Part shown: piece after piece, positions 681 to 63,102 of the stretch
How the letters are laid out: each line of letters starts with the position of its first letter
Numbering within the stretch: the stretch's first letter is position 1
From: a virus
Reading direction: 5' to 3' (one strand)
Length of the DNA: 64,000 nt
Virus record (IMG/VR): IMGVR_UViG_3300032242_001941
Location: 1-64,000 of that record
Notes under the pieces: model-generated
The model's database searches: none
What the model was told of the DNA's origin: nothing
Seen by the model: only the letters and a program-made list of their open reading frames with translations
Position numbers and translations under genes: made by a program

Positions 681-1814
681 ATGAGCAATTTCTATTGTGC
701 AGCTCCTTGGCGGGGGCTGCATATTAATCCACGTGGTGACATAAAAACTTGTTGTGCCGGCAATCCTAACATGCTGGGCAATCTCAATGACCAAAATATT
801 GAAGAAGTATTACAAGGTGAAAAACTACAGGAAATTCGTAGATCATTGCGCCAAGGCGTAGCCCATGAATATTGTAGTAATTGTGTGAACGCAGAAAAGT
901 TTGGCAATAGCGAGCGAGAATGGCATAACAATATTAATCATGATTTTGACTCTACACAGGCCAGCGATACTGAACACATTCCAACTTTGATTGATGTCAG
1001 ATGGAACACTACCTGTAACCTTAGTTGTAATTATTGCGACCCATCAGCAAGTTCAAAATGGGCAGTATTAAAGAACATTCCATTTAAGTCAGGAACTCGT
1101 CCCTACTACGAACAAGTTTGCGACTACATAAATCAATATCGTCCACACATTCGTGAAGTTGCACTAGTTGGCGGCGAACCACTGTTGTTGCCGGAAAACG
1201 AACGTTTGCTTGATGTTATACCCGAAGATTGCGTAGTAACAGTTATTACCAACATGAGTGTAAATTTTGAAACAAATAAAATATTTAAAAAACTAGCCCA
1301 ACGACGTCGAGTAGGGTGGTCAATGAGCTTTGACAACATTGGTCCACAGTTTGAATATGTTCGTTATGGTGCGGATTGGACGTTACTACAACATAATTTA
1401 ACAATTCTTAAAGAATTATTTGCTCGTGGACATTGGGGCGGCATACACGCTGTCTATAATATGTATAATGCAACTTGTTTATCCAACTTGTTTGACTGGA
1501 CAAAAAGTCAACAGTTGACTGTGCATTTTCAAACATTACATTCTGTACCCTGTTTAGATCCAACAAATCATAATCAGGCTGTGCAGGACCTAGCATTAGC
1601 TGAAGTCAGCAAGGTATTAGCAAGAACAGATCTTACTGACAGCGAACGCAACTTTTTGTTGCAAGTTAAAGAAAGTTATAATCAGCCTGCTACTCAAGAC
1701 AGCAGTAAAGAATTATTAGACTTTGTTGACCTAACAGAATCTACCTATCACCAAGATACACAAGGACAGTTTGCCCGATTATGGCCTGAGATAGATGCAA
1801 TACTATGCAAATAA
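681..1814 (+). CDS. Radical SAM protein with N-terminal auxiliary Cys cluster (copy 1)
   Basis: 377 residues. The radical SAM motif CX3CX2C is CNLSCNYC at residues 112-119, followed by the SAM-binding GGEP segment (VGGEPLLL). Extra Cys residues come before the core (C6, C24, C25, C65, C68), in the arrangement APW...CC...YCSNC. That is a SPASM/twitch-like auxiliary Fe-S region placed N-terminally. The family modifies peptides or other substrates by radical chemistry; the substrate here is unknown. The gene lies 7 bp upstream of the terminase gene. Two more genes of the same architecture occur in this window (19401-20510 and the reverse-strand 21929-22957). The family call is secure; the function is not. 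Confidence 0.85.
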   Translation: MSNFYCAAPWRGLHINPRGDIKTCCAGNPNMLGNLNDQNIEEVLQGEKLQEIRRSLRQGVAHEYCSNCVNAEKFGNSEREWHNNINHDFDSTQASDTEHIPTLIDVRWNTTCNLSCNYCDPSASSKWAVLKNIPFKSGTRPYYEQVCDYINQYRPHIREVALVGGEPLLLPENERLLDVIPEDCVVTVITNMSVNFETNKIFKKLAQRRRVGWSMSFDNIGPQFEYVRYGADWTLLQHNLTILKELFARGHWGGIHAVYNMYNATCLSNLFDWTKSQQLTVHFQTLHSVPCLDPTNHNQAVQDLALAEVSKVLARTDLTDSERNFLLQVKESYNQPATQDSSKELLDFVDLTESTYHQDTQGQFARLWPEIDAILCK

Positions 1815-18460: not shown

Positions 18461-19420
18461 ATGATTGATGTGGTCTCCTTTTTACCTGCTAAACGAAAAC
18501 AAACAGCCAGTGGCTGGATAAGTTTCAACGCACCTTGTTGCATTCATCGCGGCGACACGCAAGACAAGCGACAGCGTGGCGGTATTAAACCTGGCACTGA
18601 CGGATCTTGGAGTTATCACTGTTTCAACTGTGGATATACTGCTAGTTTTGTCCTAGGACGTAACTTAACTTACAAGGCTCGGCAACTTCTTAAATGGTTA
18701 GATGTACCTGCGGAAGAAATTGAACGCATAAATCTTGAAAGTTTAAAACAAAAAAGTATTGAAGGCCTCCTGGGCGAACGACAAGAAATAGTACAACGAT
18801 TATATGCAATTGAATTTGAAGATCGAGACTTACCTGCAGAAACAAAAGAGTTAAATGACCTGGCTGTGGAATATTTGCAAGGTAGGGCAATACCACTAGA
18901 CTATCCATTTTTATATAAAACAATGCCACGTCGTGGCATTGTAATTCCGTTTACGCACAACAATCAAGTGGTAGGGCACACTACAAGATTTTTAGACGAC
19001 CGCACACCTAGATATATTCAAGATATACAGCCAGGTTATGTATTTGGTACAGACTTGCAAGGCGCAGATTGGCAAACAGTCATTGTAGTCGAAGGTGTGT
19101 TTGATGCCTTAAGCATTAACGGCTTGGCAGTCTTACACGCAGAGATCAATGATGCACAGGTTAAATTAATACGTAGTCTAGGCCGCAACGTTATAGTAGT
19201 ACCAGATCAAGACGAAGCTGGTATGCGGTTAGTGGATCGTGCAGTAGAATTAGGCTGGGCTGTTAGTATGCCCGAGTGGCCTGAGGGCATTAAGGATGTA
19301 AATGATGCAGTAATTCGTTTGGGTAAGTTGGCTACATTGATAACTATAATGCAAGCCCGAGAAACTAGCAAGATCAAAATAGAACTAAGGAAAAAACAAC
19401 TTGTTAAAAGACTACGGTAA
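18461..19420 (+). CDS. DNA primase, gp61-like
   Basis: 319 residues. An N-terminal zinc-binding domain has C26, C27 and H29 with CFNC at 53-56, as in phage primases. A Toprim-like domain carries VVVEGVFDALS (acidic Glu) and VVPDQDEAGM (Asp pair). It synthesises RNA primers on the lagging strand together with the gp41 helicase. The stop falls inside a 17-bp sequence that recurs at the gp41 start. In the undisrupted arrangement primase and helicase would have overlapped directly. The ATG follows the -10 by 5 bp. Confidence 0.9.
   Translation: MIDVVSFLPAKRKQTASGWISFNAPCCIHRGDTQDKRQRGGIKPGTDGSWSYHCFNCGYTASFVLGRNLTYKARQLLKWLDVPAEEIERINLESLKQKSIEGLLGERQEIVQRLYAIEFEDRDLPAETKELNDLAVEYLQGRAIPLDYPFLYKTMPRRGIVIPFTHNNQVVGHTTRFLDDRTPRYIQDIQPGYVFGTDLQGADWQTVIVVEGVFDALSINGLAVLHAEINDAQVKLIRSLGRNVIVVPDQDEAGMRLVDRAVELGWAVSMPEWPEGIKDVNDAVIRLGKLATLITIMQARETSKIKIELRKKQLVKRLR
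19401..19417 (+). repeat. 17-bp direct repeat, left copy
   Basis: TTGTTAAAAGACTACGG, identical to 20523-20539. It is the 3' end of the primase gene and the 5' end of the radical SAM gene. The right copy is the 5' end of gp41. The copies bracket the radical SAM insertion. Confidence 0.9.
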
Positions 19421-20510
19421 TTGGTGCCCTGACATCTATCACAACTTGTTTGTTGACCGCTACAATGACGATTCAATACGTGTTGCTCCGTGTTGTCAAG
19501 CAACCGCGTCTGTCGAATCAATTGATACTTTTAACTTTGAATCTAATCCATATTTAAATAAATTAAGAGAGCAATTTAAAAATAATGAACGACCGACGGA
19601 ATGTCAAGCCTGTTGGGTTGCCGAAGATGTAGGCCATCAAAGTCGTCGTCAACTTCGAATTGAAGGAGATTCAGCAATTGATAAAATTGACCATGATGTA
19701 GTGCTTACAGGATTAGATCATTCAGCTACTTGGGCGTGTAATCTTGCTTGCATCATGTGCGGACCGATTAACAGCAGTACCTGGGCCAAGGAGCTGGCAT
19801 TTACCAAACAACAATTGATTGAATTAGGTAGATATTTACAAAAAACAAACAGATTTGTTGACGTACTTGATTTATCAAATATTACCAAAGTTTATTTCAA
19901 TGGCGGCGAACCATTATTGAACAACGAACATTTAACTCTATTACAAACATTAGATAAACAAGATCTTTTAAAAAATGTTGATTTAAGCTATACTAGTAAT
20001 GGTACCATTAGCCCTTCACAACAGGTCAAAGACCTGTGGAATAAGGCTCGGTCGGTAGGATTATGTTTTAGTATTGATGCTACCAACGATGCGTTTAACT
20101 ATGTAAGGCACCCAGGAGATTGGAACGTGGCCAGTAATAACATAACAAAGCTAATACACTCCTCTGACAAATTAAACATTTCAATCAATATAACTGTGGG
20201 TAATTATAATGTGTTAGAAGTCATTGATGTGTATAATTGGTTTCAAACAATCTTACCCAATACTCCAAAATCATTTTATCCGCAATTTGTCAATTGGCCA
20301 CATTTTAACCTAGAACATTTGCCATTGTCGGTTAAACACAGAGTAATTGAGGAATTAAAAGGTATTGAAATTCTCAGTGGAATTGTGAATTATATCAACT
20401 CTACCATGGATTCACCGGTGTCAGACCATTGGATAAACGTTCTTAATCAAATTGACTCTCGTCGAGGAACAAATTGGAAGGAATCTTTAAAAATTGGAAA
20501 ATATTATTAA
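19401..20510 (+). CDS. Radical SAM protein with N-terminal auxiliary Cys cluster (copy 2)
   Basis: 369 residues from the TTG at 19401, overlapping the primase end by 20 bp. The core motif CX3CX2C is CNLACIMC at 113-120, followed by NGGEPLL. N-terminal auxiliary Cys are WCPDIY, APCC and ECQACW, and a SRRQLRIE segment is shared with the reverse-strand copy at 21929-22957. It sits between primase and helicase, two genes that normally work as a pair. Its first 17 bp duplicate the helicase start, which suggests insertion. Function and substrate unknown. Base composition is more A/T-rich than the flanking replication genes by eye. Confidence 0.85.
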   Translation: MLKDYGNWCPDIYHNLFVDRYNDDSIRVAPCCQATASVESIDTFNFESNPYLNKLREQFKNNERPTECQACWVAEDVGHQSRRQLRIEGDSAIDKIDHDVVLTGLDHSATWACNLACIMCGPINSSTWAKELAFTKQQLIELGRYLQKTNRFVDVLDLSNITKVYFNGGEPLLNNEHLTLLQTLDKQDLLKNVDLSYTSNGTISPSQQVKDLWNKARSVGLCFSIDATNDAFNYVRHPGDWNVASNNITKLIHSSDKLNISINITVGNYNVLEVIDVYNWFQTILPNTPKSFYPQFVNWPHFNLEHLPLSVKHRVIEELKGIEILSGIVNYINSTMDSPVSDHWINVLNQIDSRRGTNWKESLKIGKYY

Positions 20511-20522
20511 AAGGAATTTATT

Positions 20523-20539
20523 TTGTTAAAAGACTACGG
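20523..20539 (+). repeat. 17-bp direct repeat, right copy
   Basis: Identical to 19401-19417. It encodes LLKDYG at the N-terminus of gp41, while the left copy encodes the same residues at the N-terminus of the radical SAM protein. Confidence 0.9.
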
Positions 20540-21932
20540 GCTTGATGTCCAACGACTATTCTTAGAAATGATGTTGCAAGACGCAGAGTCTTATGTGCGT
20601 GTGCAGAACATTTATAATCCAGAAAACTTTGATCGCAGCCTACGTCCGGTAGCTGAGTTCATTGCTACACACAGTAATGAATATAAAACATTACCGGGTA
20701 CAGAGCAGATTCGAGCCGCAACAGGTGTAGAGTTAAAACATATTCCTGATTTAAATGAGGGTCATTTTGAGTGGTTCATGACCGAGTTTGAAGGCTTTAC
20801 TCGTAGACAAGAACTAGAACGAGCAATTTTAAAATCAGCAGACTTGTTGGAGAAGGGCGAGTATGATCCTGTAGAAAAACTGATCAAAGATGCGGTGCAG
20901 ATCAGTTTGACCAAAGATATGGGTACAGATTATTTTGCAGATCCAAGACTTCGTATTGACAAATACTTCAACTCGGGTGGACAAGTAAGCACAGGATGGC
21001 CACAAATGGACAAGATCTTGTACGGCGGATTTAGTCGTGGGGAACTTAACATTTTTGCTGGCGGATCTGGGTCGGGTAAGAGTTTGGTTATGATGAACAT
21101 AGCACTAAGTTGGCTACAAGCAGGACTCAGTGGTGTGTATATTAGTTTAGAACTTTCAGAAGAACTATGTGCCCTGCGTACGGATGCCATGTTGGCAGGA
21201 ATGAGTACCAAAGAGATTCGCAAGGATATTGATCAAACTGAACTTAAGGTTAAACTGGTAAGCAAGAAAGCTGGACAGTATCGTATCAAAGCACTGCCAG
21301 CACAGAGCAATATCAATGACATTCGCAGTTACATCAAGGAAGTGCAAGTGCAAACAGGTATTAAGGTAGACTTTATCATGTGCGATTACTTGGACCTGTT
21401 GATGCCGGTCAGTGCCAAGGTCAGTCCCAATGACCTGTTTGTCAAAGACAAGTACGTTTCAGAAGAGTTGCGTAACTTGGCCAAAGAACTTAATGTGTTG
21501 TTTGTTACAGCATCGCAGTTGAATCGTAGTGCGGTAGAAGAAATTGAATTTGACCATAGTCATATTAGTGGTGGTATTTCAAAGATTAATACTGCGGATA
21601 ATGTGTTTGGTATCTTTACAAGTCGTGCTATGCGCGAACGTGGCAAGTATCAGATTCAGTGTATGAAGTCGCGCTCTAGTACAGGTGTTGGTATGAAGAT
21701 TGATTTAGATTACAACATCGAAACTATGCGTATCACAGACCCAGGCGAAGAAGCCGGTCCTGTTAATTCGTTTGCCAAAGGCAATTTGTTAGACAGTATC
21801 AAAGCCAAAAGCACAATGATTAATGGAACAGAATCAGTAAATCCAGCCGATAGAGAAGAAACTGTTAAGATTACCGCAGATGTGCAAAGTGCCAAACTAA
21901 AGCAGTTATTGGGACAAATTAAACAATCTTAA
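20523..21932 (+). CDS. Replicative DNA helicase, gp41-like (DnaB superfamily)
   Basis: 469 residues, TTG start after AAAGGAA. The N-terminal helical domain (about 1-150) is followed by a RecA-like motor with Walker A GGSGSGKS at about 180-187, Walker B FIMCDYLDLL, and the DnaB-type TASQLNRSA segment. The hexameric enzyme unwinds the fork 5' to 3' and recruits primase gp61. A spacer of 12 bp separates it from the upstream radical SAM gene. The convergent radical SAM gene downstream starts 4 bp before the gp41 stop on the other strand. Confidence 0.92.
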   Translation: MLKDYGLDVQRLFLEMMLQDAESYVRVQNIYNPENFDRSLRPVAEFIATHSNEYKTLPGTEQIRAATGVELKHIPDLNEGHFEWFMTEFEGFTRRQELERAILKSADLLEKGEYDPVEKLIKDAVQISLTKDMGTDYFADPRLRIDKYFNSGGQVSTGWPQMDKILYGGFSRGELNIFAGGSGSGKSLVMMNIALSWLQAGLSGVYISLELSEELCALRTDAMLAGMSTKEIRKDIDQTELKVKLVSKKAGQYRIKALPAQSNINDIRSYIKEVQVQTGIKVDFIMCDYLDLLMPVSAKVSPNDLFVKDKYVSEELRNLAKELNVLFVTASQLNRSAVEEIEFDHSHISGGISKINTADNVFGIFTSRAMRERGKYQIQCMKSRSSTGVGMKIDLDYNIETMRITDPGEEAGPVNSFAKGNLLDSIKAKSTMINGTESVNPADREETVKITADVQSAKLKQLLGQIKQS

Positions 21933-22957
21933 TCAGTTAAAATTCTTGCAATTTCTGGCAGGTAATTTTTAATGTCAATGCGTTTAGCAAGATCCTGTGC
22001 TTGTATTTTATTTTTATATTCAGCAAGATCAATTTCGTCTCCGGTTATACTTGCCCATGGAGCCGCAAAAGAATTTTCAGATAGTAGTTCCTTTAATTCT
22101 ACCGGCATTGCAGTCAAACTTAACCAGTTTGGATAATTTACAATATTATGATTGTATCTAAGACCTTGTTGAGTAAACCAATTAACAGTTTGATCATGAT
22201 AAAAGATGTTTAACGAGCTTATAGTGTATGATATACTAATATTTTTAGTAATCTTTTGATAGTCCGCAATATTTTTAATTACTTGATCCCACTTTGCCGG
22301 CCATCTTAGATATTCAAACACAGGACCAATTCCATCAACACTTATACAAATATTTAAATCTGTGAATTTTGATAACAGATCTAATTGTGTTTGTTTTAAA
22401 TTAATACTGCCGTTGGTTATAATTGATACAAAACAATCGGTATTTTTATGTTCTACAAGTTTTTCCAATATGGTAAATGTTTTTGGATCAAAAAATGGTT
22501 CGCCGCCTAGTAGGCTAATACGTCGAGCAGAAGAATAATTAATATCTGTTTCCTCTAAATTAATTTCGGTTAAATTTATTGGTGTTGCACCCATTTTTCT
22601 TTCAACCTCTGCCCACTTAGTTGAAGCCATACTTCCGCAGGACACACAGGCCTGATTACAAAGATTGCTTGTGGTTATTTGATAAATTACAGGGGTAATT
22701 TGAGTTGTAGCACAATTGTATCTTATTAAATGTAGATCACGATCAAGTTTATAGTCTAGGAATTCATTTTCCAGTTGTCTTCTACTTTTTTGACCAATTG
22801 ATTCTACGGTCCAACATCTTGAACAAGCTGGTGATTTAGTTCCGGCCAATAGATCAATTTTTAATTGATTTACATTGGTATCTTTGGGTAATAAGCAGCA
22901 GGGAGTGTTGGCAGGTAGTTCTGTACTATACCAAGGCAAAACGCAAAATGTATCCAT
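21929..22957 (-). CDS. Reverse-strand radical SAM protein (copy 3)
   Basis: 342 residues from the ATG at 22957 (MDTFCVLPWYSTEL). An in-frame ATG further upstream would add a hydrophobic stretch unlike the family and is rejected. Auxiliary Cys are at 5, 20, 21, 45 and 48. The core motif CNQACVSC is at 100-107, followed by LLGGEPFF. It is read toward gp41 and overlaps its last 4 bp. A TTAAATAC late-type motif lies 3 bp upstream of the start. It closely resembles copy 2 in its N-terminal cluster (CxxCW, SIGQKSRRQLE). Substrate unknown. Confidence 0.85.
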   Translation of the reverse strand: MDTFCVLPWYSTELPANTPCCLLPKDTNVNQLKIDLLAGTKSPACSRCWTVESIGQKSRRQLENEFLDYKLDRDLHLIRYNCATTQITPVIYQITTSNLCNQACVSCGSMASTKWAEVERKMGATPINLTEINLEETDINYSSARRISLLGGEPFFDPKTFTILEKLVEHKNTDCFVSIITNGSINLKQTQLDLLSKFTDLNICISVDGIGPVFEYLRWPAKWDQVIKNIADYQKITKNISISYTISSLNIFYHDQTVNWFTQQGLRYNHNIVNYPNWLSLTAMPVELKELLSENSFAAPWASITGDEIDLAEYKNKIQAQDLAKRIDIKNYLPEIARILTD

Positions 22958-29447: not shown

Positions 29448-29819
29448 ATGGCCTATTCAGAAAAAGTAATCGATCATTATGAAAATCCACGCAATGTGGG
29501 CAAAATGGAAATAGACGACACAGTGGGAACAGGTATGGTTGGAGCTCCTGCCTGCGGTGATGTAATGAAGTTGCAAATTCGAGTTGAAGATGGGATTATA
29601 ACAGATGCAAAATTCAAAACTTATGGTTGTGGGTCGGCGATCGCTTCATCGTCACTTGTCACAGAATGGGTCAAGGGCAAAACGCTGGACGAGGCTGGAT
29701 CAATTAAGAATTCTCAAATTGCAGAGGAACTCGCACTCCCGCCGGTTAAGATCCATTGTAGTATCCTTGCGGAAGACGCTATTAAGGCTGCAGTAGCAGA
29801 TTACAGAAGCAAGCATTAA
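29448..29819 (+). CDS. iscU: Fe-S cluster scaffold protein IscU-like
   Basis: 123 residues, full length for IscU. The three scaffold Cys are present at C36, C61 and C104, with conserved D38 and H103. The conserved start ([16 protein letters not shown]) and GAPACGDVM and [12 protein letters not shown] motifs are intact. The chaperone-binding LPPVK motif is present ([10 protein letters not shown]), so it could use host HscA/HscB. It assembles [2Fe-2S] clusters from IscS sulfur. It is coupled to the IscA-like gene by one shared base and has its own sigma70-like promoter. Confidence 0.93.
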
Positions 29820-37662: not shown

Positions 37663-40088
37663 TTGCACTAGATAGACTACAACAAATAATCCCAGCTGAT
37701 CAGGCCCTGGCCAACAAGGCATTGTCGGTCAGTTTACAAGGACTTTCGGGACACAGTACCACGACTTCACCAAGTTTGGCCACAGCAATACCCAATCAGG
37801 AAACCACCAAAAATCTTCCACTCATGTCGGCACTGACAGTAGCAGTTCCATCCAGCGTGGCCGACTACTTGGTCAATACCTATCCAGAAGGAACAGGTCA
37901 ATACAATACATTATTAATAATTGATCTATTAGGAACTCCTAGCGGACAACGAACACCGATACCCAAATTACTTGATACTGTAGCAACAATAAATGCAATG
38001 GGCGTTGAGACATTAACCGAAATATACAGTCGAATGATCAACGACATCAATGGTGTGTATAATGTAGAAATTCCAGCAGTTCCAGCGGATCCGACCACAG
38101 GCGATCCCGGAAGCCCTGCAATATTTTATGTAGATGTTCCAGGTGGCCCGGCTGCAGGAATTTACCCAACCCAACAAGCGGCGTTCAACGAGTTGATTGC
38201 AGTTGGCCGAGCTGAAATATTGAGATTATCAGCCACAAGCGCAGGACAACAAGCGCATCAAGATTTTATCGACATATCCAATCAATTAATAAAAGAACAG
38301 TATCAACAGTCCAGAGCTTTTGTAGATTTTAGATATCTTCAGGCCAATGATAAAATGTCAATATACGGATTTGTTTATAGTTTGCCTCAGTATGGATTAG
38401 ACACTATACAATATGATGTAGCATGGTATTTAGAACAGTTATCTGTTCTTTCTATAGCACCCGATCAATTTACCGCACAGGCAGTTCTTGCCTGTATGCG
38501 CGAAGGTCGAAACAATGCTACACTCAGTAAGGCCGGAATTGGTACCAACAGTAGTATTCCAAGTGTACCCACACCCACACCGCCTCAGGCAACCTTACTG
38601 CCCTCAAAATACACAGCTGGTGAAGCTGCAAGTTTATTAAATGTATCTGGATCTTCAAACACATCGGCGACCACATGGGTAAGTCCACCTGATGATTCAA
38701 GTATTGGAACATTTGCTATTAGTGTACCAATTGCTCCAGTTCAGCTAACAGCCACAGCGCCCGATGGCAATGTGCGTTATACCGTATCAAGTGGCTCGTT
38801 GCCGACCGGATTAACACTTGGATTGACCACAGGTCTAATCACAGGCACCCCAACTTCTTTAGGCACAGCGGTTCCTTTTGTGGTTGTTGCAAGCTCACTT
38901 TCTAGTCAAGATTCATCTCGTCGGTTCACTTGGACAGTCAATCCTTACACAATTACATGGACAAGTCCATCGCCCAATTCGAGTATTGGAACATTCAATC
39001 AAGATTCCCCAATTACTCCAGTTCAGTTAACAGCCACATCACCTGATGGAAATATTTTGTACAGTATAACCAGTGGGTATCTGCCCACCGGATTAGTACT
39101 TGGGACCACCACAGGACAGATCACAGGCACACCAACTTATCTTGGAACTAATATTAACTTTACGGTTAGTGCAAAATCATATTCTGGAGTAGGTACTCCA
39201 GTGACACGTACATTTAATTGGTCAGTAGTTCCTGTGACCACATGGGCAAGCCCGCCTGATGGTTCAAGTATCGGAACATTCAATCAAAATTCTGCAATTA
39301 CTCCAGTTCAGCTAACAGCCACAGCAACAAGTGGAACAGTACAGTACACCATAACCAGTGGATCCTTACCAACCGGATTAACACTTGGGTTGACCACAGG
39401 ACAGATCACAGGCACACCAACTCAACTTGGAACCAACACCAGCTTTACAGTTCGTGCCGTTTCAAGTTTTGGCGGAGTACCGGTGACTCGGACATACAAT
39501 TGGACAGTAGTTCCAGTGACCACATGGGCAAGTCCGCCCAACGGTTCAAGTATTGGAACATTTACTACCAATACAACAATTACTCCAGTCCAGTTAACAG
39601 CCACAACCACTGGTGGAACAGTACAGTACACCATAACCGGTGGATCTTTACCAACAGGATTGACACTTGGAACCACCACTGGACAAATTACAGGCACCCC
39701 GACGGAGGTCGGCACCGCCGTCGACTTTACTGTTAGTGCAGTATCAGATTTAGGTGGAGCACCGGTGACTCGGTCATTTAAATGGACTGTGTTGCCTGTT
39801 ACAACATGGGCAAGTCCAACAGCTGGCTCAAGCATTGGAACATTCAAACGAAACGTAGCAATCACTCCAGTTCAATTAACAGCCACAACCACAGGTGGAA
39901 CCGTACAATATACTCTAACAAATTTCAGTGGATCGTTACCTGCCGGACTAACACTTGGATTGACTACAGGTCAAATCACAGGCACACCGACTCAACTTGG
40001 CTTTAATGTTAGTTTCACTGTCAGCGCGGTATCAAGTGCAGGCGGCACAGCAGAAACTCGTTCATTTACCTGGACTGTTACTGTTTAA
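37659..40088 (+). CDS. Structural protein with five C-terminal Ig-like (He_PIG-type) repeats
   Basis: 809 residues. The N-terminal 330 residues form a helical/mixed domain with low charge. The C-terminal 470 consist of five repeats of about 94 residues, each beginning TTWASPPDGSSIGTF-like, then ITPVQLTAT and SGSLPTGLTLG, and TGQITGTPT in the strand/turn pattern of putative Ig-like repeats. Such repeats are common in adhesion modules and tail proteins. Coupled to the preceding structural gene and the PAAR gene. A tail fibre or baseplate-attached adhesin is the best inference. Confidence 0.78.
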   Translation: MIALDRLQQIIPADQALANKALSVSLQGLSGHSTTTSPSLATAIPNQETTKNLPLMSALTVAVPSSVADYLVNTYPEGTGQYNTLLIIDLLGTPSGQRTPIPKLLDTVATINAMGVETLTEIYSRMINDINGVYNVEIPAVPADPTTGDPGSPAIFYVDVPGGPAAGIYPTQQAAFNELIAVGRAEILRLSATSAGQQAHQDFIDISNQLIKEQYQQSRAFVDFRYLQANDKMSIYGFVYSLPQYGLDTIQYDVAWYLEQLSVLSIAPDQFTAQAVLACMREGRNNATLSKAGIGTNSSIPSVPTPTPPQATLLPSKYTAGEAASLLNVSGSSNTSATTWVSPPDDSSIGTFAISVPIAPVQLTATAPDGNVRYTVSSGSLPTGLTLGLTTGLITGTPTSLGTAVPFVVVASSLSSQDSSRRFTWTVNPYTITWTSPSPNSSIGTFNQDSPITPVQLTATSPDGNILYSITSGYLPTGLVLGTTTGQITGTPTYLGTNINFTVSAKSYSGVGTPVTRTFNWSVVPVTTWASPPDGSSIGTFNQNSAITPVQLTATATSGTVQYTITSGSLPTGLTLGLTTGQITGTPTQLGTNTSFTVRAVSSFGGVPVTRTYNWTVVPVTTWASPPNGSSIGTFTTNTTITPVQLTATTTGGTVQYTITGGSLPTGLTLGTTTGQITGTPTEVGTAVDFTVSAVSDLGGAPVTRSFKWTVLPVTTWASPTAGSSIGTFKRNVAITPVQLTATTTGGTVQYTLTNFSGSLPAGLTLGLTTGQITGTPTQLGFNVSFTVSAVSSAGGTAETRSFTWTVTV
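38660..40085 (+). repeat. Five tandem repeats of about 280 bp
   Basis: Copies begin near 38669, 38952, 39237, 39517 and 39799. Copies 3 and 4 are the most alike. Unequal recombination among them could change repeat number. Confidence 0.85.
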
Positions 40089-48703: not shown

Positions 48704-48732
48704 TTGACACAATCACCTATGTGTGTTATAAT
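48704..48732 (+). promoter_or_regulatory. Sigma70-like promoter for groES-groEL
   Basis: TTGACA, a 17-bp spacer and TATAAT: all six bases of both boxes match. Followed by AAAGGAG before the ATG at 48775. Confidence 0.88.
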
Positions 48733-48774
48733 CTATTGTTGTGGTATTATCATTTACATTTAAAAGGAGTATTA

Positions 48775-49062
48775 ATGAATCTAAAACCTACTAGAGATCG
48801 TATTGTTATACGTTTACTCGAAGCAGAAACTCAAACTAAATCTGGAATCTTTATCCCAGATGCCGCAGTTGAAAAACCAAACCAGGGCGAAGTATTGGCC
48901 ACAGGTGGCGGCCGCATCACAGAAGACGGCACCGTGATCCCAATGGAAGTTAAAACTGGTGATCGTGTACTGTTTGGCAAACACGCTGGCACACCGATCA
49001 AAGTTGACGGCGAAGAATATCACATCCTCAAAGAAGATGATGTAATGGCAATTGTAGAATAA
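48775..49062 (+). CDS. groES: Co-chaperonin GroES
   Basis: 95 residues from the ATG at 48775, the usual GroES length. An in-frame ATG at 48721 lies in the promoter and is rejected. Begins MNLKPTRDRIVIRLLEAE, followed by the mobile loop region (KSGIFIPDAAVEKPNQGEV) and the C-terminal beta segment (YHILKEDDVMAIVE). It caps the phage GroEL ring. T4 instead brings its own gp31 and uses host GroEL. groEL follows after 9 bp. Confidence 0.95.
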   Translation: MNLKPTRDRIVIRLLEAETQTKSGIFIPDAAVEKPNQGEVLATGGGRITEDGTVIPMEVKTGDRVLFGKHAGTPIKVDGEEYHILKEDDVMAIVE

Positions 49063-50703
<1,641 letters not shown>

Positions 50704-54002: not shown

Positions 54003-54494
54003 ATGAAAAAAATAATAATAATAACTCTCTTAGCTTCTGCGCCTGCGTTTGTCACGGCTGCAGAACTACAACACTATTTTAGTAGCCCGGCCTTTAGCGG
54101 CGTTGGATACAGTAGCCATGTCTTGACTTTACAACAGCTAGAAACTCAACAAAAAGAAAAAAATAAATTGGCCGCAGATGCTATTGCAGCCAAAGCAGCC
54201 GCAGATGCTGCAAATACTCCACAGGCTAGATTTTTAGCCAACATTGAAAGTAGAGTCTATGCTCAACTAGCCAAACAAATTACCGATAGTTTGTTTGGTA
54301 CAGACGGTGTGCCTAGTTGTAAAGCAGTAAATCCTTACAGTCAGTGCGGATCTGTAAACATAGCGGGCAATGATATCACTTGGCGCCTGGGCGACCCAGC
54401 AAACGCCAGCGAAAAAGGCATGTTAGTAATCAACATTGCTGGTGCCACCGGCAACGTTCAAATGATGGTGCCATCTGGAACCTTTGCTTTTTAA
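54003..54494 (+). CDS. csgF: Curli assembly protein CsgF-like
   Basis: 163 residues. Signal peptide (about 1-19), then the CsgF-type start ELQHYFSSPAFSGVGYSSHVL, a Gln/Lys-rich helix, a QARFLANIESRVYAQLAKQI helix and a C-terminal beta domain. CsgF binds the outer mouth of the CsgG channel and guides curlin release. It lies 9 bp upstream of csgG. Confidence 0.88.
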   Translation: MKKIIIITLLASAPAFVTAAELQHYFSSPAFSGVGYSSHVLTLQQLETQQKEKNKLAADAIAAKAAADAANTPQARFLANIESRVYAQLAKQITDSLFGTDGVPSCKAVNPYSQCGSVNIAGNDITWRLGDPANASEKGMLVINIAGATGNVQMMVPSGTFAF

Positions 54495-54503
54495 GAAAAA
54501 TAT

Positions 54504-55319
54504 ATGAAACATACCGTAATTTCCTTGCTTGCAATTGCTTTATTAGGTGGATGTGCCATTGGCAGTGGTATCCGCGAACAGCTGACAAACAAGCAGTTTG
54601 ACGAACCAGTGATAGAAAAAAGTATTGTATTAGCACAGCCAAAAAATCAACTAGCACCACCGGCAGATGGACCTATTGCTGTGGCTGTGTACGGATTCCA
54701 AGATAAAACAGGGCAACGCAAAAGTCAACTTGCTGTGGCCAGTTTAAGCAGTGCTGTAACACAAGGCGGCGAAAGTTACTTGATTAAAGCCTTACAAGAT
54801 GTAGGCGATGGCCGCTGGTTCACTGTGGTAGAAAGAGTTGGGCTAGACAACCTAATCAAAGAACGACAAATGATTCGCCAGGGTCGCGAACAGTATCAAG
54901 GACGTGATGCTAAACCGTTACCGCCAATGGTATTTGCCGGAATGATTGTGGAAGGTGCTATTGTGGGCTATGATTCAAATACTCTTACAGGTGGCGCCGG
55001 TATGCGTATCTTTGGTATTGGCGGCCAAACACAGTATCAAAGTGATACAGTCACGATTAGTTTGAGAACAGTCAGTGTTCTTACTGGAGAAGTATTGACC
55101 ACAGTTACAGTTACAAAAACTGTGTTGAGTTACATGGATAAATTTACAGTATTGAGATTTATCAATGACGGAACTAACTCCTTAGAATCAGAAATAGGAG
55201 GTAGTATAAACGAAAGTATTAACCGAGCAACAAGCGCAGCCATACAAGCCGCAGTGGTTGATACGATTCGTGAAGGTGCTCGTAAAGGACACTGGAATTT
55301 TAAAGAAGTAAAAAAATAA
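54504..55319 (+). CDS. csgG: Curli secretion channel CsgG-like lipoprotein
   Basis: 271 residues. Lipobox LGGC at Cys 17. Core CsgG features: IAVAVYGFQDKTGQRK, RWFTVVERVGLDNLIKERQ, AGMIVEGAIVGYDSN and the TVSVLTGEVLTTVTVTKTV channel strands. CsgG forms a nonameric outer-membrane pore that exports unfolded curlins. Full length and apparently intact. It is co-transcribed with csgF and the curlin-like gene. Confidence 0.95.
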   Translation: MKHTVISLLAIALLGGCAIGSGIREQLTNKQFDEPVIEKSIVLAQPKNQLAPPADGPIAVAVYGFQDKTGQRKSQLAVASLSSAVTQGGESYLIKALQDVGDGRWFTVVERVGLDNLIKERQMIRQGREQYQGRDAKPLPPMVFAGMIVEGAIVGYDSNTLTGGAGMRIFGIGGQTQYQSDTVTISLRTVSVLTGEVLTTVTVTKTVLSYMDKFTVLRFINDGTNSLESEIGGSINESINRATSAAIQAAVVDTIREGARKGHWNFKEVKK

Positions 55320-55341
55320 CAATAAAAAATAGGAGCTTAGA

Positions 55342-55356
55342 TTGGGGATAACCCAA
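55342..55356 (+). other. Small hairpin before curlin-like gene
   Basis: TTGGG pairs with CCCAA around GATAA, shortly before the ATG at 55370. No T-tract, so not a terminator; the curlin start has only a weak ribosome site. Confidence 0.4.
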
Positions 55357-55369
55357 CTTTGAACAAACA

Positions 55370-56167
55370 ATGAAAACAAACAAATTAAATACAGCCTATA
55401 CAATATTTGCTGTGTTGGCATTTGTTTCATTAAATGCAGCCGCACAAAATGCGGCCACTGGACCTAACAAGGTTTACCTGGAACAGATTGGTAGCACTAA
55501 TACCATCACAGTTCAACAGGTTGGCGGCACTAACAATGTTGGCGGCACCGGCGGCAATGTAACAGTAGATACCAATGGCGTAACTACTTTTACACCCGAT
55601 GCCCCTGGCAGTACTAACTATGCTACAATCACGGGTGCTAACAATGTGGTTGGACTTAGTCAGACTGGTAGTAACAACACGGCTCAGTACAATATCACTG
55701 GCAGTAACAATACCTATAACAGTACTGTGGCTGGCAATAACAATCAAACTCGTTTGATCATGGGTGGTGCCAATGCCACAGCCAATTACAATACTGTAAC
55801 AGAAACAGTTACTGGCAGTAATAACTTGATATTACAAAACGTTCAAGGCAGTAATGTGGTCAGTGGTATTGGAATTGTTGGCAGTACCAACCAAGTGACT
55901 ACTGATTTATTAAGTAACCGCGGAAGTTCTAATATACAAATCACTGGCAGTACCAACGTGATCAATGCTGAACAGACGGGCGGTGCTGGTGCCAATGGGC
56001 ACATATTGATTAATAATGTGATAGGCGACTATAACAGTATTACCACCCAGCAACAGGGTTCTATTGATACAACAATCGATCTTAAGACCACAGGTAGTTT
56101 CAATACCGTCACGGTACGGTCCAGCGACTCGGCCATTGTCAATTCAAGAACTGCTGTAGCAAGGTAA
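55370..56167 (+). CDS. Curlin-like repeat protein (CsgA/CsgB type)
   Basis: 265 residues. Signal peptide ending AAAQN. The rest is composed of imperfect curlin-type repeats with Gly-Ser/Thr-Asn-Asn and Gln spacing (IGSTNTITVQQVGGTNN, TGSNNTAQYNITGSNNTY, TGSNNLILQNVQGSNV). About ten units are visible. Its location after csgF-csgG makes it the probable exported substrate. Amyloid formation is inference from repeat type. Confidence 0.88.
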   Translation: MKTNKLNTAYTIFAVLAFVSLNAAAQNAATGPNKVYLEQIGSTNTITVQQVGGTNNVGGTGGNVTVDTNGVTTFTPDAPGSTNYATITGANNVVGLSQTGSNNTAQYNITGSNNTYNSTVAGNNNQTRLIMGGANATANYNTVTETVTGSNNLILQNVQGSNVVSGIGIVGSTNQVTTDLLSNRGSSNIQITGSTNVINAEQTGGAGANGHILINNVIGDYNSITTQQQGSIDTTIDLKTTGSFNTVTVRSSDSAIVNSRTAVAR

Positions 56168-56168
56168 T

Positions 56169-57269
56169 ATGCAGAAACTAATCACAGCCCTTTGCGTTAT
56201 GGTTGTATGTAACGCCTGGGCTGGCATTGGCACGGTTTCAGAACACAAAGGTACAGCCTGCGAGATCACACGAGACAAAAATAAATTATCTGGGCACAAA
56301 GATGCCATAGTTGAAAGTATGGACACATATACCACCGGTGCATGTGTCAGCAACATTACATTTAAAGATGACACAAAGGTTCGCATAACTGAGAACAGTC
56401 GCTTGCTTATTGATGATTTTGTATTTGATCCCAAGGCCAGCGATGCCGGCAAACTGGCTCTTAAAGTGAGCGCAGGCACTGTGCGCTATGCGTCGGGCCA
56501 GATTGCTAAAAATAGTCCACAAAAAGTAAATATTCAAACGCCAACAGCCACAGTGGCAGTTCGTGGTACTGATTTTACCATGACCGTTGACGAAGCTGGA
56601 CAAAGTCTGATAATGTTAATACCTAGTTGTAAAGATATCAACGAAGTTAAACAATATGAATTAGAAGAGAATAGATGCAAAGTTGGACGTATCGAAGTAA
56701 GCACTCTTGCTGGGTCAGTGGTCTTAGACCAAGCATTTGAAGCAACCTATGTTATGAGTGCTCTAATGGCACCAACTCCACCTATTGTTGTCAACACTGT
56801 TGAAAGTAAAATTAATAATAATCTTATTATTGTTAAACCTGTTGAAGTTCAACGAGCTATTAAAGAAGCAACAAAAACCAAACAAGAACAAGAACTTGAC
56901 GACATCGAAGCCGACGCGGCTCGACGACTAGCACAGGCTGTGGCCAAATCCGCCGAAGCCATTGAGGAAGCTCGTGTTTCCAAGTTTGTTGACCTTGCCA
57001 AACGGTCTGGGTGTAATTCTGCTACCAGTGTCTGTGTGATATGGGATAGACCGTCTGAAACAGAAATGATCAGTCGTGGACGTGGTATTGCATTCCGCCT
57101 AACAGAAAATGAGCATTATGCCGAAGTCAAGACACTTGGGTATGTATCCAACACCACAATTAACATTACACATAATGATATGCCATCATCGATCACTATC
57201 GGCGATGGCTCTCCTGGTGGAACTATTGTAACTATTAAACAAAACAATGGAGTATTAAAGTCTAAGTAG
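56169..57269 (+). CDS. Secreted FecR-domain protein
   Basis: 366 residues. Signal peptide ending NAWA. The FecR domain is shown by TDVKI-like DDTKVRITENSRLLIDDFVFDP and VRYASGQIAKNSPQ followed by TPTATVAVRGTDFTM, the hallmark FecR segment. Middle coiled-coil (EATKTKQEQELDDIEADAARR) and a C-terminal domain with two Cys. It starts 1 bp after the curlin-like gene. It may sense or shape the exported fibre or envelope; no sigma partner is present. Confidence 0.85.
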   Translation: MQKLITALCVMVVCNAWAGIGTVSEHKGTACEITRDKNKLSGHKDAIVESMDTYTTGACVSNITFKDDTKVRITENSRLLIDDFVFDPKASDAGKLALKVSAGTVRYASGQIAKNSPQKVNIQTPTATVAVRGTDFTMTVDEAGQSLIMLIPSCKDINEVKQYELEENRCKVGRIEVSTLAGSVVLDQAFEATYVMSALMAPTPPIVVNTVESKINNNLIIVKPVEVQRAIKEATKTKQEQELDDIEADAARRLAQAVAKSAEAIEEARVSKFVDLAKRSGCNSATSVCVIWDRPSETEMISRGRGIAFRLTENEHYAEVKTLGYVSNTTINITHNDMPSSITIGDGSPGGTIVTIKQNNGVLKSK

Positions 57270-57309
57270 CCCAAGAGTGTATACGTAGTTTATTTTTTAA
57301 TGGGCAGTA

Positions 57310-57317
57310 CTTAAATA
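57310..57317 (+). promoter_or_regulatory. Late promoter motif CTTAAATA (putative small RNA promoter)
   Basis: CTTAAATAC, 48 bp before a strong terminator. No convincing gene lies between. Confidence 0.4.
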
Positions 57318-57322
57318 CTATG

Positions 57323-57393
57323 CAGGCATATTATAACTATAACAAGCCGGCTACGCAGGATTTTATACCCACTTTACAGTGGGTATTTTTTTT
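57323..57393 (+). ncRNA. Candidate small RNA between csg operon and cyclase genes
   Basis: About 70 nt from the predicted start of the late motif at 57310 to the terminator at 57365-57393. It contains an AGCCGGCT palindrome and a GCAGG repeat (near 57322 and 57355). A 36-codon ORF from the ATG at 57320 crosses the terminator and is not convincing. Confidence 0.3.
57365..57393 (+). terminator. Rho-independent terminator
   Basis: ATACCCACT pairs with AGTGGGTAT around TTAC, followed by eight T residues. Confidence 0.9.
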
Positions 57394-57401
57394 GTTAAAT
57401 A
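57394..57401 (+). promoter_or_regulatory. Late promoter motif GTTAAATA
   Basis: GTTAAATACTAGT, nearly identical to 26780; precedes the gene at 57423 with a CCGGAG ribosome site. Confidence 0.5.
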
Positions 57402-57422
57402 CTAGTCATACCGGAGATACAA

Positions 57423-57647
57423 ATGACTGACTTTTTTAAACCCGATCCAAGAATTACTGACCCTGCACTAAGAGATTTAGAAAAAAAAGTGCATTGGCTT
57501 ATGTCACAAATTTATGCCGGAAGCTGGGCGCAGATGTGTAGTGATGCAGGGCTCGATTGTAATACCGTGTATAATACATTTCCAGATAATTTTGATATAA
57601 ACAATATTAGACCAGACGCAGAAGAAGTTCAAAATAACGATGCTTAA
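57423..57647 (+). CDS. Small protein upstream of cyclase
   Basis: 74 residues, acidic, with one pair of Cys (MCSDAGLDC). Starts MTDFFKPDPRITDPALRDLEK. It overlaps the cyclase start by 8 bp, so it is co-translated and may be a cyclase partner or regulator. No family recognised. Confidence 0.65.
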   Translation: MTDFFKPDPRITDPALRDLEKKVHWLMSQIYAGSWAQMCSDAGLDCNTVYNTFPDNFDINNIRPDAEEVQNNDA

Positions 57648-59691
57648 AAAAATCTTAACAAGTCCGTGGACTGCTCTATTGACGCTGGCCTTAGTAGTGG
57701 GGTTACGGGTAGCAGACCCTACATTTGTTGAAAGCGTTCGTCTACGCTATTTTGATACGCTTATAACTAGTAAGCCTGCAGAAGTTATAGGTGTTAGTGT
57801 TGTAAACATTGATGAAAAGGCATTAGAAAAATATGGACAATTTCCTTTCTCCCGCGATCAGTACGCTGCCATCGTCCGGGATTTATATCGCCGCAATGCT
57901 GGTCTTGTTGTTTTTAACATCCTTACTCCTGATCGCGATCGCATGGGGCATGATGCAGAATACATCCAAGCCCTTCGCCAGTATCCAACAATTCTCCCTA
58001 ACATTGGGTCGCAAACTTCTCGTAATACTCCAAAAGCTCCTGGCTCAGTAGTCATAGGCCCATTTGGTCTAGATGCCTTTGTTACCTATCCTGGTATTAT
58101 TGCTAACCAACCTGCTATTGAAAATGCCGCAGTCGGTGTTGGTATTGTAAATACCTTGCCAGAAGTAGACGGTGTCGTTCGTCGCATGCCAATGGTAGTA
58201 GCATATGATGGCAAGTTGTACCCGAGCCTTGCTATGGAAACACTTCGAGTAGCTGGCGCCGACACCACTTTCCAAGTGAAGATCAACGAAACAGGCGTTG
58301 AGAAAATGCGCATTCCAAAGTTTGGAGCTATTACAACAGATTCATTGAGCCGTATTTGGGTTGACTGGTCACTGGTACCAAGTAAATATGGTTTAACGGA
58401 CTTGCCAAAAGATTTTGAAGGTGAAATTGTTATTGTTGGTGTATCAGCACAAGGACTTGCAAACCCTGTAGCTACAAGCCTTGGCGAAATGCTACCACAA
58501 GATTTACAAGCAAGTGTATTGGGTACTGTAATTGCCAATAGAGATCGTCCGGCAATTACTCGCCCAGATTGGGCCGATGGTGCAGAAATTGTATTTGTCG
58601 TTACGGCAGGTATTGTATTGTTATTTTTATCAAGGTGGGTTTATGTTGGACTTTGTTCATCTGTTTTTATACTCGGCGGGAGTATATTGCTGTCTCGTTG
58701 GGCTTATGGAAATTACGCTTGGCTTGTGGACGCGACTATTCCAGTCGTTGGCCTTGGCCTTGTGCTTCTTCATGCTTATGGTGTTAAGTTCGTAAGTGAG
58801 TTTTTACAAAAGCAAGCAATCAAGAAACAGTTTGCTGGCTACTGCTCCAAAGAAGTAGTGGAGCTATTGCAAAAAGATCCAGACCTAATCAAACGCGGTG
58901 TGCGCAAAGATGTCAGTGTCATGTTCTCAGACCTACGTGGCTTTACTCCTATCGGTGAACACTATGGTGATGATGTTGCTGGACTTGGAAAATATATGAA
59001 CGGTTATATGGATAGCATTAGTTGTCCTATTCTAGATAACAAAGGTATGATTATTAAGTATGTAGGTGATGCATCGATGCACATACACGGCGCTCCTATT
59101 GAAGATCCTAATCACGCACATACTATTGTTAAGGTAGGACTTGAGATGTTAGATGCTGTGGATGAATACACTAAACTAATGGAAGCACAAGGATTACCTC
59201 CTGCCGCAATGGGTTGGGGTTGTAACTCAGGTATTGGCTTTATTGGTGAAATGGGAAGCACAGATAGACACAGCTATGACATCTTAGGTGACATGGTTTC
59301 AACAGCTGCACGACTAGAAGCACGTTGTAAGGCCTATGGTGTGTTATGTATTATTGGTGCTGAAACATACAATAGAACTCGAGACGATTTCTTTTACTTG
59401 TTACTAGACAACTTGCAACCAAAAGGCAAAACAGTAGCAGACTTAATCTATACAGTATTACGTACTAAAGGTGTAGACTACAGTAAAGATAAGGCACAAC
59501 ACGAAAAAATGCATGACTTGTACCGAGCTAAAAAGTTTGATGAAGCCGCCGCTATGTGTACTAAAATGAAAGGCACCTTTGGCGGGCAGATGGACAAGTA
59601 CTACAAGATATGGATTGAACGTTGCGAGTTTATGAAAGAACAAAATTTACCAGATAACTGGAATGGCGAATTTGTGGCACACGAAAAATAG
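57640..59691 (+). CDS. CHASE2-domain membrane adenylate/guanylate cyclase (class III)
   Basis: 683 residues. N-terminal transmembrane helix, then a CHASE2-type extracytoplasmic sensor (VSVVNIDEKALEKYGQFPFS, then PDRDRMGHDAEY and VDGVVRRMPMV), three transmembrane helices (about 313-385) and a class III cyclase domain. Metal Asp are D431 (MFSDLRGF) and D477 (KYVGDASM). Adenine-selecting Lys 473 and Asp 547 (YDILGD) favour ATP, but the transition-state Asn is Ser 554 while Arg 558 is kept. Probably makes cAMP in response to an envelope signal; the substituted Asn may alter rate. Confidence 0.92.
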   Translation: MLKKILTSPWTALLTLALVVGLRVADPTFVESVRLRYFDTLITSKPAEVIGVSVVNIDEKALEKYGQFPFSRDQYAAIVRDLYRRNAGLVVFNILTPDRDRMGHDAEYIQALRQYPTILPNIGSQTSRNTPKAPGSVVIGPFGLDAFVTYPGIIANQPAIENAAVGVGIVNTLPEVDGVVRRMPMVVAYDGKLYPSLAMETLRVAGADTTFQVKINETGVEKMRIPKFGAITTDSLSRIWVDWSLVPSKYGLTDLPKDFEGEIVIVGVSAQGLANPVATSLGEMLPQDLQASVLGTVIANRDRPAITRPDWADGAEIVFVVTAGIVLLFLSRWVYVGLCSSVFILGGSILLSRWAYGNYAWLVDATIPVVGLGLVLLHAYGVKFVSEFLQKQAIKKQFAGYCSKEVVELLQKDPDLIKRGVRKDVSVMFSDLRGFTPIGEHYGDDVAGLGKYMNGYMDSISCPILDNKGMIIKYVGDASMHIHGAPIEDPNHAHTIVKVGLEMLDAVDEYTKLMEAQGLPPAAMGWGCNSGIGFIGEMGSTDRHSYDILGDMVSTAARLEARCKAYGVLCIIGAETYNRTRDDFFYLLLDNLQPKGKTVADLIYTVLRTKGVDYSKDKAQHEKMHDLYRAKKFDEAAAMCTKMKGTFGGQMDKYYKIWIERCEFMKEQNLPDNWNGEFVAHEK

Positions 59692-61774: not shown

Positions 61775-62080
61775 ATGACTAAGAAAACTGGCAATTATAC
61801 TGCTCCTGACAAATCAGACTTGCATAGATGGTATGTTTATACACATACCGATCCGGCAACTGGAGAAATTGTTTATGTAGGCGAAGGTACTGGTCAGCGA
61901 TTTTCAGCCGTTAACACTCGAGCAAGCGACCATTCTTGGTTTCTTAAAGAAGTAATACATGACAAACGGCTAGACTGTTTTCAGATTGTTGAATCACGGT
62001 TAACTAAAGAAGAAGCAAGAGCACTAGAGTATCAACTAATTACCAAATATAAACCAAAATTTAATAAAGCGATGAAATGA
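61775..62080 (+). CDS. GIY-YIG-type nuclease domain protein
   Basis: 101 residues from the ATG at 61775; an in-frame ATG at 61757 lies inside the promoter spacer and is rejected. The GIY-YIG pattern is degenerate but visible: WYVYTHTDPATGEIVYVGEG, a conserved Arg (GQRFSAV) and a downstream Glu (LEYQLITKYKP). Standalone GIY-YIG proteins often cut or nick DNA in repair or homing. Overlaps uvdE by 4 bp. Confidence 0.75.
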   Translation: MTKKTGNYTAPDKSDLHRWYVYTHTDPATGEIVYVGEGTGQRFSAVNTRASDHSWFLKEVIHDKRLDCFQIVESRLTKEEARALEYQLITKYKPKFNKAMK

Positions 62081-63102
62081 TTAAACGTATTGGTTTTTGT
62101 TGCAAATGGCTCAATGATCCGTCTGAATGTGGCGGCATGAAGGTCAATGCAGTGGATCGGGACCTTAACGGGCGTTCAACTACCATGCGTTGGTTGCGTG
62201 AGCACCCTGCAGAAGCCGAACAGCGCCAGTGGGACATCATGAATCACAACACCGCTGCCGCTGTCAAGTTGATCGAGCGTGTGGCCACATTACCGCCTGA
62301 ACGTCGCATGGTGAGGTTAGGCAGTGAAATGCTACAGGGCTATACTGAACCGTCATGGATTGACTGGTGGCAACAGACTGATGTGCAGAATCATTTGGAA
62401 AAGATTTTTGCTCCTATAGGCGAAACTGCTCGTAGATTGGATGTGCGACTGAGTTTTCATCCTGGACAGTTTTGTGTGTTGGCCAGTGAGAATCCTGGCA
62501 TTGTGGGAAGATCTATACAGGAGTTTGAATATCATGCAGATATGGCCAGGTGGATGGGTTATGGCAAATCATTTCAGGACTTTAAGATCAACGTCCACAT
62601 ATCGGGTAAACGCGGTCCCGAAGGTTTACGAGACGCCTACAGCAAACTCTCACCCGAAGCCCGTAACTGTATTACTATTGAAAACGAAGAAAATTCTTGG
62701 GGGTTAAATGATTGTCTTACCATTTCTGATATTGTGCCTGTTGTGCTCGATATTCATCATTACTGGATCCGTGAGGGAGCCTACATCCTACCTGGAGACG
62801 ACCGTGTTAAAAGAGTTGTTGACAGTTGGCGCGGTGTTCGTCCTGCTATGCATTACAGTGTCAGCAGGGAAGATATACTTGTCGGACACAATGCCAACCA
62901 AGCACCTGACTATCCGGCACTTCTGGTAGCGGGTTATAAGAAACAGAAACTAAGAGCACACTCAGACTTTTACTGGAATCAATCTGTAACTGACTGGGCC
63001 TTGAGTTTCTGGGAACAGTTTGATATACAGTGCGAGTCAAAGGGCAAGAACTTGGCCAGTGCTCAGGTCTATGCTCGTGCGGTAGAGTTGAATTTGGTTT
63101 AA
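62077..63102 (+). CDS. UV-damage endonuclease UvdE/UVDE-like
   Basis: 341 residues. TIM-barrel UVDE features: FHPGQFCVLAS, IENEENSWGLNDCL, VVLDIHHYWI and AHSDFYWN (metal His/Asp/Glu). Cuts 5' of UV photoproducts and other lesions in alternative excision repair. Coupled to the GIY-YIG gene by ATGA overlap, forming a small repair operon. The last base is shared with the next start. Confidence 0.95.
   Translation: MIKRIGFCCKWLNDPSECGGMKVNAVDRDLNGRSTTMRWLREHPAEAEQRQWDIMNHNTAAAVKLIERVATLPPERRMVRLGSEMLQGYTEPSWIDWWQQTDVQNHLEKIFAPIGETARRLDVRLSFHPGQFCVLASENPGIVGRSIQEFEYHADMARWMGYGKSFQDFKINVHISGKRGPEGLRDAYSKLSPEARNCITIENEENSWGLNDCLTISDIVPVVLDIHHYWIREGAYILPGDDRVKRVVDSWRGVRPAMHYSVSREDILVGHNANQAPDYPALLVAGYKKQKLRAHSDFYWNQSVTDWALSFWEQFDIQCESKGKNLASAQVYARAVELNLV

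Follow-up and report, generated by a model that had tools for sequence, protein, structure and literature searches.

A gene slot between the overlapping primase and helicase genes of large freshwater phages

The window analyzed here is a 64,000-nucleotide stretch of viral DNA (positions 1 to 64,000 of IMG/VR record IMGVR_UViG_3300032242_001941). On its plus strand, a Toprim-type DNA primase gene (18461-19420; Pfam Toprim_2, PHROG DNA primase) is followed by a gene for a twitch-domain radical SAM protein of the N_Twi_rSAM type (19401-20510; NCBIfam NF033640 and alignment), hereafter the slot 1 insert, and by a gene for a DnaB-like replicative helicase (20523-21932; Pfam DnaB_C, 5e-21; PHROG_19). 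A preliminary description of this region had reported that an exact 17-bp repeat ends the primase gene and opens both downstream genes, and the window sequence confirms it: the 17-mer TTGTTAAAAGACTACGG occurs in two exact copies, at 19401-19417 and 20523-20539. The left copy (plus strand) encodes LVKRLR of the primase in one frame and MLKDYG of the radical SAM protein in the other; the right copy (plus strand) is the helicase start, also MLKDYG, and the common start of the two genes reads TTG TTA AAA GAC TAC GG. The primase C-terminus is KKQLVKRLR*, with its final codons extending into the insert. An AAGGA-type ribosome-binding site lies within the primase tail (19387-19400, plus strand) and is kept in most empty sites, and the spacer between the insert and the helicase gene (20511-20522, plus strand) contains a new AAGGA site for the helicase. 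Judging from the sequence, the first of these probably serves the helicase in empty sites and the radical SAM gene in the window, and the second probably came with the insert. When the window flanks are joined without the insert, they read CTT GTT AAA AGA CTA CGG GCT TGA, or LVKRLRA*, in agreement with the earlier claim that removal of one copy and the insert restores a primase frame that ends in GCT TGA and overlaps the helicase start.

The 17-mer had no further matches in the window at up to 3 mismatches, and in a shuffle control two matches, even at 3 mismatches, were obtained in 1/100 shuffles. Among the first 40 of 47 exact 17-mer direct repeats, the others fall within internally repetitive genes at ~5.9-6.2 kb and 38.7-39.6 kb. 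The second of these regions (38700-39900) contains a gene for a large repetitive protein with near-exact internal repeats of ~285 bases. Elsewhere, the window carries adjacent GroES-like and GroEL-like genes, recognized by eye (48721-50703), a curli-secretion-like set at 54003-59691 that comprises CsgF (3e-7), CsgG (9e-49) and FecR (9e-11), the last two separated by a repeat protein, together with a CHASE2-adenylate/guanylate cyclase (7e-36, 1e-13) in the same stretch, and a UV damage endonuclease gene, UvdE (62077-63102; 1e-30).

The comparison proposed earlier was with the primase-helicase junction of related phages that lack the radical SAM gene. Scans of IMG/VR with the helicase and primase as queries yielded 111 distinct junctions, 70 without an insert and 41 with one; repeats and start codons were compared between 65 overlapping empty junctions and 87 filled ones. 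Empty sites therefore occur in many relatives, and their overlap has the predicted form. In nearly all empty junctions the primase and helicase genes overlap by 17 nt (by 14 in two), and the primase ends in LVKRLRT in 47/66 and in LVKRLRA in 10/66 empty sites. The two phages closest to the window by helicase, L001 and L046, are both empty, and L001 carries a string identical to the joined flanks of the window, with the same GCTTGA. Thus the possibility raised in the preliminary description that all relatives might be filled does not hold, and its other caveat, that the repeat might be a conserved coding constraint, holds in half, in that the conserved primase tail is encoded by the left copy and the helicase start by the right. 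We set aside the idea that empty sites are assembly collapses of the repeat, as the 17-nt repeat is short, below usual assembly word lengths, and most relatives are empty. In a phage collection searched for close sequenced phages, no record spanned the region and helicase fragments alone were matched.

The slot accommodates diverse genes: twitch radical SAM genes of two subfamilies, two SGNH-like families, B12-binding radical SAM genes, and sulfotransferase-like, methyltransferase and homing endonuclease genes. The first insert opens at a TTG within the primase tail in 61/87 filled junctions, and this start is shared by unrelated genes, SGNH-like and B12-radical SAM as well as radical SAM. The SGNH-like inserts of L170 and L178 are flanked by repeats of 16 and 15 nt, respectively, and L163, with a radical SAM protein 46% identical to that of the window, has the full 17-nt repeat; the repeat is therefore a property of the site and not of the radical SAM gene. 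No Pfam family was assigned to the SGNH-like inserts, which we label by a GDS motif seen by eye; the type found in L008 occupied this slot in 15/15 cases. Duplications of other sizes were also found. L390 (3985-5548) has an SGNH-like gene followed by an orphan helicase start of 31 codons, closed by a stop, and further on by a NUMOD3/GIY-YIG-like endonuclease gene and a full, divergent helicase gene starting MATEYGI, and in L250 (2012-2719) a sulfotransferase-like insert has the C-terminus SKKIKIEQRKKKLVKRR, a copy of ~16 primase tail residues.

As most inserts (the 61/87 above) start at the TTG inside the primase tail, we interpret the exact 17-nt repeat as the dual-coding overlap of primase end and helicase start, duplicated when the slot was filled and a mark of that filling. 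The duplicates have largely decayed. Across filled sites the two copies differ by 0 to 9 mismatches; the repeat is exact in 3/87 and within 2 mismatches in 10/87. The junction matched the helicase start within 3 mismatches in 15/87 filled sites and control windows inside the primase never did. Left copies resemble their own right copies (5.6 mismatches) slightly better than the right copies of other loci (6.1). In L003, for example, the left copy retains LVKRLR with synonymous changes, and MSNAYD is now the start of the insert; drift in right copies follows the helicase coding. Start codons carry a second trace of the duplication. The helicase started with TTG in 65/65 empty overlaps versus 40/91 decoupled junctions (Fisher 3e-16), the 51 non-TTG starts being an approximate count because a few were placed only by alignment. 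This release from TTG was also found in phylogenetically independent pairs (median p 0.008), with none in the opposite direction. An ATG in the overlap would change a primase Leu codon from CTT to CAT, so the overlap would explain the restriction to TTG.

Turnover of the slot was mapped on a 135-row helicase tree, where the empty/filled state changed at least 31 times, versus 36-51 times for shuffled labels. As the tree counts changes and not their direction, many empty sites may be deletions; the sample consists of metagenomic contigs chosen by similarity. Radical SAM alleles have been exchanged between phages: L212 and L242 have helicases that are 98.5% identical and radical SAM proteins that are 54.6% identical, and the window compared with L227 and L214 gives 96% for the helicase and 48-49% for the radical SAM protein. 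Distances for the two proteins are nonetheless correlated (rho 0.50), so part of the history is vertical. A further set of largely marine-type contigs, whose helicases are 77-100% identical to that of L261 (itself 67% identical to the window), contained 33 empty, 7 radical SAM and 19 other sites, and the 14-17 nt overlap was mostly absent. As this clade gains and loses inserts mostly without the overlap, the repeat does not act as the mobility signal.

The slot 1 protein scored 229 bits against NF033640 (cut-off 170). It has the radical SAM motif CX3CX2C at C113/C117/C120, and the N-terminal twitch cysteines, CC at 31-32 and CxxC at 68-71, all invariant in 10 aligned sequences. Viperin (NF038283) was rejected as an identity (36 bits, cut-off 180). 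A fold model of moderate quality (pLDDT 79; below 50 in the SAM-motif region) gave BlsE as the best PDB match (E 7e-4, TM about 0.35), with anSMEcpe and MoaA among the others; these matches support a radical SAM fold alone. We thus predict with high confidence that the protein is a radical SAM enzyme; confidence in any particular substrate is low. For twitch/SPASM-like enzymes, modification of a peptide or small molecule is the default expectation.

In a location-blind search, the best 80 relatives of the slot 1 protein (radical SAM-A; 38-73% identity) were all encoded in this junction (80/80), directly before the helicase or one insert away; four lacked a primase gene only because the contig ends within ~0.5 kb. 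A scan of bacterial genomes found no radical SAM-A relatives. Rather than roaming as a cassette, the slot 1 radical SAM gene belongs to a subfamily that is locked to the site. A second N_Twi_rSAM gene (21929-22957, minus strand; NF033640, 209 bits) occupies slot 2, where it abuts the helicase stop in antisense orientation; this minus-strand type forms a different subfamily that, on a tree labeled by location, occurs only there in the loci fetched. Slot 2, behind the helicase, also houses other radical SAM subfamilies, some antisense, each of which stays on one strand and within one clade. Location followed the clades in a 129-protein radical SAM tree, biased in that the set was fetched around this region, with 3 changes for slot 1, 3 for slot 2 plus strand and 1 for slot 2 minus strand. 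A third N_Twi_rSAM gene (681-1814, plus strand; 214 bits) lies directly before the terminase (1821), and its relatives are likewise upstream of a terminase, which was nearby in 24/26. The full virus record (111,611 bases) has five radical SAM genes of the N_Twi_rSAM type, and it also encodes an IscU-type scaffold protein (29448-29819; NifU_N, 3e-52). The available text of PMC5332604 describes marine T4-like phages that carry IscU and numerous radical SAM genes, 12 of the latter in one T4-like genome.

Homing endonuclease genes are present in the slot of several relatives: HNH_3 genes (Pfam) in L174, L184 and L189, and NUMOD3/GIY-YIG-like genes in L390 (Pfam NUMOD3) and L050 (same sequence cluster), with a sixth candidate, GIY-YIG-like by eye, in L179. 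The endonucleases of L050 and L390 are 93-100% identical over most of their length, and their helicase genes are 92-100% identical over the first ~80 bp and about 60-75% identical thereafter, a pattern that reads as an apparent co-conversion tract. In T4-type phages, according to the available part of PMC2988022, free-standing endonucleases spread through repair of a break, during which the flanks are co-converted. A role in moving neighboring genes has been proposed for endonucleases located at exchange boundaries (Barth et al. 2023, PMC10448857). The presence of these genes suggests break-induced recombination between the conserved flanks of the junction, of which the last step is our inference. 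A motif scan of the window found no endonuclease in its own slot, and in filled-empty pairs divergence near the junction was slightly raised, which does not amount to a clear recombination or co-conversion tract. Nevertheless, the radical SAM gene of the window may have arrived by such a homing-type event.

From these data, we consider it probable that the primase-helicase slot has been repeatedly emptied and refilled, that the repeat is a duplicated overlap, and that exchange proceeds by recombination between phages in the flanks. The empty slot of the window's clade would be the 17-nt dual-coding overlap with a ribosome-binding site just upstream, carrying the six primase codons that precede the final one or two, plus the TTG start of the helicase. 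An insertion that spares both neighbors would have to retain the overlap twice, on the left for the primase and on the right for the helicase. The inserted gene would then be translated from the former helicase start, and the helicase would gain a new ribosome-binding site and start. Afterwards, the copies would diverge, with primase coding shaping the left one and helicase coding the right one; the window would be a case in which this drift has yet to occur. When phages co-infect, exchange would take place by recombination between their conserved flanks in primase and helicase, and at least sometimes a break made by a homing endonuclease might start it. Direct observations are the overlap, both states of the site (empty and filled), the reuse of the start, the release from TTG, the exchange of alleles, the site-locking and the endonucleases in the slot.

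The preliminary description had instead suggested that a cassette was inserted by short homology or target duplication. Empty sites with the predicted overlap are in its favor, and an exact flanking repeat is what a mobile radical SAM cassette might leave as a footprint, but the roles assigned to the repeat, as moving homology or as target duplication, largely fail. It is seldom well preserved in filled sites, marine clade inserts turn over mostly without it, the gene family is locked to one site, and unrelated genes share its start point. Nor did we find a recombinase in the insert: it is a single radical SAM gene with no transposase, and with its two ends set side by side no terminal inverted repeats were seen by eye. 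A transposon or IS would be expected to make target duplications of fixed length at many sites, whereas here there is one site with 0-9 mismatches. We regard this origin as improbable. It is somewhat less unlikely that the filled state is ancestral and that empty sites arose by deletion between the copies, with the repeat an excision device or liability. Precise deletion is possible at an exact repeat, and the radical SAM subfamily is old here (38% identity across phages with 62-68% identical helicases), but the repeats are degraded in most filled sites, and lineages differ in alleles and in unrelated genes, which pure loss cannot yield.

That the primase tail and helicase start merely share sequence through coincident coding constraint, with no duplication, seems very doubtful. 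Each is conserved, and left copies such as that of L003 drift synonymously as primase codons; however, although the reading frame differs between the two copies, their sequence is the single overlap of empty sites, so that either one stretch was doubled or two were reduced to one. We give equally little credence to the view that slot genes mainly serve primase/helicase expression or replication control, with selection on that driving turnover: position and strand are fixed and every insert provides a new helicase start, but the enzymes inserted are unrelated to one another, and many phages lack an insert. Returning to the duplicated overlap, one possible, more tentative extension is that overlapping junctions are standing docks, where any gene whose 5' end is fused to the common start would be expressed immediately from the overlap, and that each radical SAM paralogue in a large phage represents the allele of one dock, exchanged by homing-type repair of that dock.

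This slot resembles known systems in part. Like the T4 seg/mob free-standing homing endonucleases described in the available part of PMC2988022, it lies at a junction between conserved genes near replication genes, and HNH and GIY-YIG types occur in it too. Unlike them, its occupants are mostly enzymes other than endonucleases, with none of the latter in the window's insert, and overlap duplication with start-codon decoupling is not described for T4 free-standing endonucleases in that text. In HEG islands, endonucleases likewise sit near essential genes and are proposed drivers of neighbor exchange (Barth et al. 2023, PMC10448857), whereas in this case accessory genes are swapped at a single short slot flanked by two core genes, and flanking endonucleases are rare and no constant component. 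Cyanophage mobile gene cassettes and hypervariable regions (PMC3037559) also turn over auxiliary genes between core genes, some near endonucleases, but at varied genome positions, whereas the slot genes here are locked to one junction. Radical SAM-rich phages carry the same N_Twi_rSAM family (NF033640) in several copies per genome (PMC5332604); the location-specific subfamilies seen here are not reported in the available text of that study.

We conclude that, where two replication genes overlap, large freshwater phages maintain a small slot whose gene can be swapped. This accounts for the gain and swap of accessory genes in a tightly packed, even overlapping, replication operon with the neighbors intact, and it provides a testable genetic mark of decoupling, a TTG that is fixed in the overlap and freed after filling. 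The radical SAM genes of these phages are site-locked lineages at the positions tested, which narrows their possible function.
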